9,344 bases of DNA, from contig JAUXGM010000084.1 in assembly GCA_030622125.1 (NCBI GenBank), positions 1 to 9,344 on the forward strand. Direction: 5' to 3'. Under the pieces are notes generated by a model that made no database searches, had not been told where the DNA came from, and saw nothing but the letters and a program-made list of their open reading frames with translations. Source of the stretch: a bacterium. Lineage in GTDB: Bacteria > AUK180. Below are positions 333 through 4,595 of the stretch, in pieces (position 1 is the first letter of the stretch; each line of letters begins with the position of its first letter). The translations under genes were made by a program, and so were the position numbers.

Positions 333-539
333 ATGGTTAAAGTCGATATTAGAGATGGCAATGTCGAAAAAGCCTTAAAGATTTTGAAAAAAAAGATAGC
401 AAGAGAAGGAGTACTTTCCGTTCTTAAAAAGAAAAGATACTATGACAAACCCTCCGTTGCTATTAGGAAGAAAGTCGCAAAGGCTACTCGAAGAAGAAGA
501 AGAAGATTTAAAAGAATGCGTCGCTACCTTATTAGTTAA
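333..539 (+). CDS. rpsU: Small ribosomal subunit protein bS21
   Basis: A 68-residue, very basic protein that matches the bS21 family in length and pattern. It has the N-terminal VKVDIRDGNVEKALKILKKK segment, the central GVL...K..RYYDKPS motif corresponding to the family's GVL...RREFYEKP, and an arginine/lysine-rich C-terminal helix. bS21 binds the small ribosomal subunit near the 3' end of 16S rRNA and helps mRNA engagement during initiation. The C-terminus holds six consecutive arginines encoded by CGA plus five AGA codons. The start is fixed by a good ribosome binding site and by the family N-terminus. It is a single-gene transcript by appearance, with its own promoter. Its last 8 bases overlap the 3' end of the convergent Clp-like gene and no terminator is visible. 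Confidence 0.95.
   Translation: MVKVDIRDGNVEKALKILKKKIAREGVLSVLKKKRYYDKPSVAIRKKVAKATRRRRRRFKRMRRYLIS
490..506 (+). repeat. GAA trinucleotide repeat inside rpsU
   Basis: Five GAA units followed by GA (490-506) encode the six-arginine run of bS21, read as AGA codons. An in-frame triplet tract can change copy number by slippage without breaking the frame. Confidence 0.6.
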
Positions 540-1890
540 TCTTTAGTTTTCCGGAACTTAATGTAAATTTAAAATTCTTTTTATTGGGATTTTTCTTTAT
601 AGCATCAAGAAAAGGTATCATAAGGGTTTTTTCTAAGAATGATGATATTTGATCGGGTATTAATTTAATTTCCTTGTAGTATTCATTTGCAAGATAATCA
701 ATAATTGATGTTGAAAAAGAAGTATTAAAGCCTCTTGCCTGAACCTGCGTTTTGATCTGTTCAAGTTTTCTTTTAAATATCTCCTTGTAATCTTCAACTG
801 TAATATCATTAAAAATATAGATCCCGTCAAAGAGAGAAATAAAATCTTCACTGTACTGTTTTATCAATAATTCTTTTATCTCTATTTTGTTCTTTTCTTC
901 ATTTGTATTTTGAAATCCGATTTTTTTAGTCATGGTTGAAACAATGTGTTTATCAAGTGTAATAATAAATATTGAGTTATCAAAACTTATTTTCTTGCCT
1001 TCAACAAATATATATCCTTTTGAAAATATTTGTGTTAAAATATAAAATAATTTTTTAGATAAAAATTCAATGTGCTTTAATAGAAAAACTTTTTCCCTAT
1101 TATTTTTGATCATTTCTTTGAAAATATTAAATTGAGTATTATTTTCATCATTATCATTATCTTCCTCTGATTGAATACTCATCATCTGTGTCAGCATAGA
1201 AAGATCCATTTCCGAAACATCCTCCCTTGAATTCATCACTACCTCTGCTATGGAATATGCAAGCTCCGATTTCCCTGTACTTTTATTTCCTACAAAAAGA
1301 AATATCCCATTAGGCAGATACGGTTTTAGATCAAGGTTCATATATTTTAACATTAAAAAATCGGATATTTCTTTGGTAAAATTTTTGTTTAAATAGACCT
1401 TTTTTAAGAGCTCATTTTCAAAATCAAATGGCTTTATTCCCTTCTTTATTTTGATTCCGGTATTTTTTTTTGCAGGAAAATAAAGGTTTTCATATTGATG
1501 TACCACGGAATTTTTATTTCCAAGTATTGGATATACATTTTTATAAAGATTTAATGGAAGTTTTTTATCACTTATACCAATTTTTAATGCAGAAAGTATA
1601 AGATGGTTTATTTCTATTTTTACGCTTAAAGATTTACTTGCAATGGTAGCAGCAGTCATCATTATTTCGTCATATTTATTTTTTGTTAACGATGTCGAAA
1701 TATTTTTTTTAAAAAACTCTTTATATTCTCCAAAAAAGTTCAAGGCAGCCTTTCCTTCGGTTGTAAGATAAATATCTCCTTTCTCAACAAAATAAGAAAG
1801 GATATTAAATATATTGATCTCACCTTTCTTTATTTTATAAGATCCCATTAAGTTACTTAAAAATTGATTTGAATTAGAAGAGAGCTTCAT
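532..1890 (-). CDS. Degenerate Clp/Hsp100-like AAA+ protein, probably ATPase-dead
   Basis: A 452-residue protein. Residues about 65-125 resemble one Clp N-domain repeat. Residues about 185-420 align with the second AAA+ module of ClpA/ClpB. Walker A is intact (GNKSTGKS, 201-208). The Walker B segment reads VFLLKHIEF (268-276) where Clp proteins have VVLLDEIEK, so both acidic catalytic residues are replaced by K272 and H273. Sensor 1 Asn is D313. The arginine-finger position in the FLNRID-like stretch is L353 (FISLFD, 350-355). Sensor 2 GAR is missing near 411-413. The aromatic pore-loop region is replaced by an acidic stretch (SEEDNDNDENN, 241-251). It may bind nucleotide but should not hydrolyse it like a true unfoldase. 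ATG 1890 is preferred over an in-frame ATG at 1935 because GGAGT lies 5 nt upstream of it, and the longer form would overlap the upstream gene. It lies 10 nt after the YbjN-like gene, in one operon. Confidence 0.75.
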   Translation of the reverse strand: MKLSSNSNQFLSNLMGSYKIKKGEINIFNILSYFVEKGDIYLTTEGKAALNFFGEYKEFFKKNISTSLTKNKYDEIMMTAATIASKSLSVKIEINHLILSALKIGISDKKLPLNLYKNVYPILGNKNSVVHQYENLYFPAKKNTGIKIKKGIKPFDFENELLKKVYLNKNFTKEISDFLMLKYMNLDLKPYLPNGIFLFVGNKSTGKSELAYSIAEVVMNSREDVSEMDLSMLTQMMSIQSEEDNDNDENNTQFNIFKEMIKNNREKVFLLKHIEFLSKKLFYILTQIFSKGYIFVEGKKISFDNSIFIITLDKHIVSTMTKKIGFQNTNEEKNKIEIKELLIKQYSEDFISLFDGIYIFNDITVEDYKEIFKRKLEQIKTQVQARGFNTSFSTSIIDYLANEYYKEIKLIPDQISSFLEKTLMIPFLDAIKKNPNKKNFKFTLSSGKLKIN

Positions 1891-1900
1891 CGGATACTCC

Positions 1901-2332
1901 TTAATTAACAAAACCGAGAAATTTCGGTCTAACATTCATATAGACATGGATAATAAGATTTAAAAAATATCCCATTTGTCCGATAATAATCTCGCTTCCA
2001 TTTATTATTTTAAATATAATTTCATTGTTTTGCGAATCAATGGCGAAATAGCCATGCTCGGTTTCAGCATAATTAAGCTGTAATATTCTAAGGAACATTG
2101 CCCATTGATCCTTAGGATTCGGGGGTAGATCTCCCATGTTTGAGGTAATCTGAAGGAAAAAGGCGTCATTACCGATTAACTCAAGTTTTGTCTCAATGAC
2201 CGGTCCCTCTTTTTCCGTTGCTAAACTGATAAACCATATATAAGGCGTACCCTCTATTTTTCTTGCCTTGATATTTAAATCTTCAAGTACCTGATCCACT
2301 TTTTTAATTACTTCTTGCTGTTTCTCTCCCAT
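1901..2332 (-). CDS. YbjN-like (type III secretion chaperone-fold) protein
   Basis: A 143-residue soluble protein with no signal peptide. The layout resembles the YbjN/CesT-type chaperone fold: an N-terminal helix (about 1-20), an aromatic strand PYIWFISL (30-37), a strand segment KLELIGNDAFFLQI (49-62), then a helix plus hydrophobic strand pattern WAMFLRILQLNY....GYFAID (77-98) and a C-terminal helix (about 112-135). No enzymatic motif is visible. YbjN-family proteins are poorly understood and related folds act as small protein-binding chaperones. The start is supported by GGAGG ending 3-5 nt upstream (2335-2341). It is the first gene of a minus-strand operon, with the degenerate Clp-like gene starting 10 nt after its stop, so it may bind or stabilise that protein (inference). 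Family assignment is from pattern only. Confidence 0.6.
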   Translation of the reverse strand: MGEKQQEVIKKVDQVLEDLNIKARKIEGTPYIWFISLATEKEGPVIETKLELIGNDAFFLQITSNMGDLPPNPKDQWAMFLRILQLNYAETEHGYFAIDSQNNEIIFKIINGSEIIIGQMGYFLNLIIHVYMNVRPKFLGFVN

Positions 2333-4046: not shown

Positions 4047-4595
4047 ATGGAAGTAAAGGGAGTAGCCCTCAAAAACAGTTTTGATTGGGTAGTAGAACAA
4101 CATGGGAAAGAGAGCTGGAAAAAGATCATAGAAGATATTCCAAAGGATTCACAGCAATATATTTCTGATGGTATTATTTTTTCAAGTGAATGGTATCCGT
4201 TCAAGGTCTTCATTGATATTAACAAAGCTATTATCAATAAATACGGTAACGGCAATCACAAGATCATCTATGAAATAGCAAAAAATGGTGCAATAAAAAA
4301 TATGAATTCTATTTACAAGATATTTATGAAGATCGCATCCCCTGCTTATGTAACAAAGAAAGCGGCAGCAATATACAGTCAATTTTATACATTTGGTCAA
4401 ATGAAGGTTCACACATCAGAACCAACCAGGGTTGTTTTACATCTTGAAGGCGTTCACAATGAACCGATTTTTTTTGAACGAATATCCGGATATATCACCG
4501 GCGTATTAACATTAACAAAAGTAAAAAATCTCAAATTAACATATAGATATGATGAAAAAGGGAAATCCGCAACCTTTGACGCAAATTGGGAATAA
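4047..4595 (+). CDS. DUF2378/heme-NO-binding-like small protein
   Basis: A 182-residue cytoplasmic protein without signal peptide or membrane segment. The layout resembles the DUF2378 (Mxa TIGR02265) and HNOB/V4R-like group: a helical N-terminal half with a WYPFKVFIDINKAI segment (about 49-62), a YG.GNHKIIYEIAKNGA segment (about 66-83), a central helix ending in AAAIYSQFYTFGQMKV (107-122), strands RVVLHLEGVH (128-137), a helix around FERISGYITGVLTLT (143-157), and a C-terminal edge strand ending ATFDANW (175-181). No heme ligand can be assigned with confidence, and no catalytic motif is visible. The family has no firm function; ligand binding or signalling is the usual suggestion. It follows the UshA-like gene in one operon with its own AAGGAGT site. 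Assignment is from pattern, not search. Confidence 0.5.
   Translation: MEVKGVALKNSFDWVVEQHGKESWKKIIEDIPKDSQQYISDGIIFSSEWYPFKVFIDINKAIINKYGNGNHKIIYEIAKNGAIKNMNSIYKIFMKIASPAYVTKKAAAIYSQFYTFGQMKVHTSEPTRVVLHLEGVHNEPIFFERISGYITGVLTLTKVKNLKLTYRYDEKGKSATFDANWE

Follow-up and report, generated by a model that had tools for sequence, protein, structure and literature searches.

A Clp/Hsp100-derived AAA+ protein with a retained Walker A and a lost Walker B motif is encoded next to a chaperone-fold gene in Candidatus Mcinerneyibacteriota

Gene organization

The window, i.e. the whole stretch of 9,344 nucleotides that was analyzed, belongs to a genome of Candidatus Mcinerneyibacteriota with an assembly of 2.08 Mb in 192 contigs. 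Its minus strand carries an open reading frame of 452 codons at positions 532-1890 (stop codon included), which starts at position 1890 and encodes the protein referred to as pseudo-Clp in the following. This assignment is based on the reading frame and its translation, on Pfam and NCBIfam matches, on an alignment of orthologs, and on an AlphaFold2 model. A plus-strand reading of the same interval is full of stop codons and was rejected. The start codon is preceded by the sequence TAAGGAG-TATCCG-ATG, in which TAA is the stop codon of the upstream gene and is overlapped by the ribosome binding site AAGGAG (1897-1902, minus strand). Because the start sites of all seven orthologs lie at or near the aligned methionine, 452 residues is the likely length of the protein. 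A start at position 1935, leading to a protein of 467 residues, was rejected since it overlaps the upstream gene and the orthologs begin at the position corresponding to 1890.

The gene located 10 nt upstream of pseudo-Clp (1901-2332, minus strand) encodes a protein of 143 residues with the CesT/YbjN (TY-chaperone) fold. On the other side, the gene for ribosomal protein S21 (333-539, plus strand) is convergent with the pseudo-Clp gene, the 3' ends of both genes overlapping by 8 nt. Further away in the window, a protein of 182 residues (4047-4592, plus strand) has sub-threshold matches to HNOB (haem-NO-binding) at its N-terminus (E 0.002) and to DUF2378 at its C-terminus (E 0.016). In two congeneric genomes of the phylum, the gene directly downstream of pseudo-Clp (L003:599-1450 and L004:604-1452) resembles REP-associated tyrosine transposases (NRTARFDFPDSYFHIISRGQRKNPLFF), which was recognized by eye only.

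Fold and family assignment

An earlier note, made from the sequence alone, had described the protein as a Clp/Hsp100-like AAA+ protein, and this description is confirmed. Pfam AAA_2 matches with an E-value of 7.7e-9 (36.2 bits, gathering cut-off 27) and NCBIfam ClpB with 1.3e-17, and a profile of the pseudo-Clp family matches PDB chains of ClpB, ClpC, and Hsp101 with E-values down to 4e-42. The AlphaFold2 model (mean pLDDT 78.6) aligns with the D2 domain of ClpC/ClpB with a Z-score of 27.0 over 287 residues at 3.0 A. Pseudo-Clp is, beyond chance, a Clp/Hsp100 D2-type AAA+ protein.

The N-terminal helical domain (residues 1-131; 1498-1890, minus strand) contains an invariant residue, His96, and is a candidate for a degenerate Clp N-domain. 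In an hhalign comparison, residues 71-124 match the second Clp_N repeat in register. The score of 24.15 exceeds those of all 200 column shuffles, the highest of which reached 17.7, but the hhalign probability is only 10.8%. Clp_N gave no Pfam match in pseudo-Clp, and calmodulin matches obtained with the N-domain profile against PDB sequences were dismissed as noise. Judging from the repeat alignment, the N-terminal part is probably a degenerate Clp N-domain.

Distribution

The phylum was represented by seven genomes from two families, two of which (L003 and L004) are near-copies from one genus. Each of the seven genomes encodes one ortholog of pseudo-Clp, and the reading frame is open in all of them. 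A profile search of 379 further genomes, none of them from this phylum, detected no comparable protein; the best score was 174 bits vs 568-701 bits inside the phylum, and the best outside matches are ordinary full-length Clp proteins. A search of genome contigs with the single pseudo-Clp protein gave no match, and an alignment-based scan of the contigs returned six loci of the phylum as well as two ordinary Clp matches. Within the sampled genomes, the gene is confined to this phylum. Some short Clp matches outside the phylum were also considered as counterparts and rejected: L109, L111, and L112 have an intact DE pair, and L113-L115 represent another degenerate kind.

Loss and retention of catalytic motifs

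The canonical ClpC encoded by the same genome served as the reference for motif positions, which all refer to the minus strand. The Walker A motif GNKSTGKS (residues 201-208; 1267-1290) is intact, and its residues G201, G206, and K207 are invariant across the seven orthologs. At the Walker B position, the D-E pair is replaced by K272-H273 (1072-1077). The sensor-1 position, Asn in ClpC, is occupied by D313 (952-954), the arginine-finger position by L353 (832-834) due to a change from FLNR to FISL, and the sensor-2 motif GAR by PDQ (residues 412-414; 649-657). The former pore-loop region (residues 232-257; 1120-1197) is acidic, variable, and modeled with low confidence, with the GYVG pore loop of ClpC being replaced by SIQSEEDNDNDENN. 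These readings agree with those of the earlier note for the window protein.

The comparison of orthologs adds a gradation. The Walker B Asp is replaced by Lys in all seven proteins and the next residue is H, N, or S; thus, the conservation of the K/H substitution, which the earlier note had proposed to examine, holds for the lysine but not for the histidine. No homolog with an intact DE pair at the aligned position was found in the phylum. In the ortholog L006, the sensor-1 Asn is kept, and both members of the second family (L007 and L008) have retained a sensor-1 TSN and the GAR motif; their pore loop reads GHxG and their arginine-finger position FLNK. The assertion that every catalytic element other than Walker A has been lost therefore applies to the first family of the phylum but not to the second, and Walker B is the only element lost in all orthologs. 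As the simplest reading of this pattern, we infer that the DE pair changed first to K followed by H, N, or S, and that arginine finger, sensors, and pore loop would have been lost later in the first family.

Hydrolysis is almost certainly gone because the metal-binding Asp, the catalytic Glu, and the arginine finger are all missing. By descent and fold, pseudo-Clp belongs to the Clp D2 family, from which it departs in Walker B, arginine finger, and sensors, and it is regarded as a derived non-catalytic variant. The retention of GAR, sensor-1 Asn, and GHxG in members of the second family could also be taken to mean that the protein is still a working ATPase or unfoldase, with its catalytic residues located elsewhere owing to a misalignment or an alternative Walker B. 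This is very improbable, as the register of Walker B is fixed by the flanking hydrophobic strand and by an invariant Glu three residues after Lys272, the lysine has no exception among the orthologs, and the proteins of the first family have neither pore loop nor arginine finger nor sensor 2.

AAA+ rings need Walker A for assembly. The kept motif, together with a canonical ClpC with intact motifs in the same genome (contig C23), would be in line with a role of pseudo-Clp as a regulatory subunit of ClpC that either takes part in D2 rings together with ClpC or touches it as an adaptor or dominant-negative form, and that does not bind ClpP by itself. Such a role is doubtful: pseudo-Clp has no D1 or middle domain for stacking on the D1 rings of ClpC, its missing arginine finger would break the site of a neighboring subunit, and the two genes are not co-located.

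A conserved ClpP-docking-type motif

The longest invariant run of pseudo-Clp is KKIGF (residues 322-326; 913-927, minus strand), which follows sensor 1 where Clp ATPases have the IGF/IGL loop for docking on ClpP, the IGF tripeptide being invariant in all seven orthologs. For a run of five residues, shuffling gave a P-value of 0.0016, in a test that ignores the clustering of conservation along proteins. Clp ATPases bind ClpP by inserting a flexible loop with the tripeptide (L/I/V)-G-(F/L) into the pockets of the protease (PMC8745299; also PMC9133912). At the matching position, KSIGL is found in the ClpA-derived loop of a ClpB chimera from the PDB and KKMGF in the ClpC of the window genome. Among the canonical ClpB-type sequences of the alignment, several are without such a motif. 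In the model, pLDDT falls below 50 at residues 323-332, which would fit a mobile docking loop. The MGF/LGF loops of ClpC are the only feature that suggests the presence of ClpP in genomes of the phylum, and the IGF motif could also persist because it is needed in folding, or be an inherited loop that does not bind ClpP.

Selection on pseudo-Clp

For the closest pair of orthologs, L003 and L004, dN is 0.018 and dS 0.385. The resulting dN/dS of 0.047 indicates that pseudo-Clp is under purifying selection and not decaying. Within the first family, the share of invariant positions is 24% for the whole protein; it rises to 75% in Walker A and 62% in the Walker B block and drops to 8% in the region that corresponds to the pore loop; across all seven orthologs, 39 of 452 columns are invariant. 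The many missing motifs might suggest a pseudogene or a relic without function, but this is contradicted by the open frames, the low dN/dS, the strongly conserved blocks, the good ribosome binding site, and the constant gene pair, and the idea can hardly be maintained. The earlier note had likewise judged that the gene is not decaying. Its view that the protein has been kept as a nucleotide-sensing or scaffold pseudo-unfoldase is partly supported: an ortholog in each of the seven genomes, the dN/dS of 0.047, and the rank of Walker A and the Walker B position among the most conserved blocks speak for a pseudo-unfoldase that has no motor activity but is maintained by selection, with nucleotide sensing as a possible role.

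Other degenerate Clp proteins

A second degenerate Clp protein is encoded in three genomes of the phylum (L089:8733-10871, minus strand; L090:1-2097, minus strand; L091:2-1837, plus strand). In this two-domain protein, D1 is intact (GRAGVGKT, DEIHT), D2 is dead (FTG/FKN at Walker B), and MGF/VGF is kept. At L089 and L090, the two loci that cover its upstream side, it is preceded by TY-Chap1-like genes, one or three in number, whose PF22551 scores fall slightly short of the cut-off. The two-domain protein of genome G003 lies within a series of genes that resemble each other and have motifs of the type MYRRVGMKDRAEED and LYRKTGQRELAERD (L089:3-8733 and 11477-17999, minus strand), which apparently represent a local expansion of TPR-like proteins.

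Outside the phylum, two-domain Clp-like proteins of 606-639 residues without an N-domain are encoded in four genomes (L132:6606-8423, L133:8258-10102, L134:8472-10343, and L135:6497-8413). Their Walker B is degenerate in D2 (INGVEK, IEGIEK, FEQIER) and mostly also in D1, VGF is kept, and they are probably part of a wider family. In one tree, the single-domain pseudo-Clp and the two-domain paralog with dead D2 stood side by side, though not clearly once the rows of the first family were omitted. A tree including the further degenerate Clp proteins separated all degenerate D2 domains from the canonical ones by a branch whose support, 87/84, is below the mark of the tool, and other trees came with long-branch warnings. 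The degenerate D2 domains may share a common origin.

The chaperone-fold partner and its genomic context

A CesT/YbjN-type gene lies directly upstream of pseudo-Clp in all seven genomes. The model of the partner protein aligns with VecA with a Z-score of 14.1 over 126 residues at 2.3 A, and nearly all matches above a Z-score of 9 are class I chaperones of type III secretion systems (T3SS) or relatives of YbjN. At the sequence level, the likeness to CesT is weak: Pfam CesT_Tir_1 scores 15.2 bits against the window protein (cut-off 27), and the best E-value in the set is 2e-8. Outside the phylum, the partner profile gave weak matches in 6 of 379 genomes. This co-encoded partner and the invariant IGF, both absent from the earlier note, are the best clues to the function of pseudo-Clp.

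TY-chaperones have been proposed to bind peptides (PMC9503650), and proteins of the CesT/YbjN fold pair with PspA and with membrane-assembly systems elsewhere (PMC11237479). Distant CesT-like genes adjoin PspA-like genes in two other genomes (L077:8021-9404 and L078:7152-8294), as in CesT/Tir-PspA dyads. A PspA link prompted by these matches was rejected for the phylum, as PspA was found in none of its seven genomes.

The gene order sprA - CesT-like gene - pseudo-Clp is present in four of the five first-family genomes, representing three genera, which corresponds to sprA adjacency in four of seven genomes overall; the neighboring SprA matches TIGR04189 with an E-value of 3e-58 (197 bits, cut-off 200). 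An extensive type IX secretion system (T9SS) is encoded in all seven genomes (G000-G006), each having SprA, several proteins of the PorV family, and 24-42 Por_Secre_tail domains. Together with the pairing of CesT/YbjN-fold proteins with membrane-assembly systems, these data would be compatible with a ClpP-independent scaffold, i.e. a holdase or an assembly platform, gated by nucleotide, whose clients belong to the envelope or to secretion and are brought by the CesT-like chaperone; it may be connected with the T9SS, and IGF would be a relic. However, sprA of the window genome is located on another contig (C58) among other neighbors, a TPR gene takes the place of sprA beside the CesT-like gene in the second family, neither of these two genes precedes the pair in the window genome, and IGF is part of the longest invariant run of pseudo-Clp. 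A T9SS link is therefore not general and is suggestive only, and the scaffold role appears rather unlikely, if still a serious alternative.

Proposed function

The preferred reading, to which we assign a probability of roughly 0.45, is that pseudo-Clp is a Clp-derived pseudo-unfoldase, which binds nucleotide but does not hydrolyze it, uses ClpP as a docking site, and acts together with its chaperone-fold partner. Because Walker A and IGF are under selection, both nucleotide binding and docking are suggested to persist. Starting from a ClpC/ClpA-type ancestor, the D1 ring and the chemistry for hydrolysis in D2 would have been lost, and Walker A and the IGF loop would have been kept. Bound, unhydrolyzed nucleotide would keep pseudo-Clp competent for assembly, either alone or mixed with ClpC, and the IGF loops would fill the hydrophobic pockets of ClpP, so that the protease is occupied or gated without threading. 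The CesT/YbjN-fold chaperone may bind a client peptide or the N-domain and thereby couple it to the pseudo-Clp platform. The data set is small, with seven sequences from a single phylum, and the lost sensors could mean that the P-loop is purely structural.

A bolder version of the preferred reading assumes a regulatory device common to the phylum: a Clp ring incapable of hydrolysis, held by nucleotide without normal Mg2+ chemistry (Lys272 replacing the metal-binding Asp), would cap ClpP and couple it to clients of the T3SS-chaperone-fold partner, with the pairing recurring in the two-domain paralog (intact D1, dead D2) behind TY-chaperone-like genes. In this full form, the proposal is unlikely. 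In general, the conserved pairing and the retained Walker A and IGF suggest a regulator built from a dead motor.

Comparison with known systems

A literature search on proteins of the pseudo-unfoldase type yielded no precedent, and no description of a bacterial protein in which Walker A and the ClpP-docking motif are kept and Walker B is lost. With ClpC/ClpA-type unfoldases, pseudo-Clp shares the D2 fold, Walker A, the position of the (I/L/V)-G-(F/L) loop, and probably an N-domain. In contrast to these unfoldases, it has no D1 and no middle domain, and the first family is additionally devoid of Walker B, arginine finger, sensors, and pore loop. If docking on ClpP holds true, pseudo-Clp would be a pseudo-unfoldase controlling proteolysis and would offer a ready test of the effects of bound nucleotide and docking without hydrolysis.

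Atypical Clp/Hsp100 proteins are already known from plants, where the Clp-ATPase relatives SMXL/SMAX1/D53 act in signaling and Walker A of D2 matters for function (PMC9133912). They resemble pseudo-Clp in their Clp ancestry and in the importance of this motif. Unlike pseudo-Clp, they have a double Clp-N domain, two nucleotide-binding domains, and an EAR motif, are restricted to plants, are described with both Walker A and B, and have no chaperone partner gene. The Torsin activators LAP1 and LULL1 are similar to the reading proposed here in that an AAA+ fold is retained as a regulator of another ATPase (PMC4358337). LAP1 differs in having no nucleotide-binding motifs and a conserved Arg that matters, whereas pseudo-Clp keeps Walker A and loses the arginine finger. 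The plant SMXL proteins and LAP1 are analogs of pseudo-Clp and not close relatives.

The partner gene, finally, has the same fold as the chaperones of the known CesT/YbjN (TY-chaperone) dyads (PMC9503650, PMC11237479). Such dyads involve PspA or other partners, for instance in ADP-ribose-linked systems, and not a dead Clp protein as found here. Little is known about what CesT/YbjN-fold chaperones do in the cell apart from type III secretion, and the pseudo-Clp pair connects them with Clp machines.
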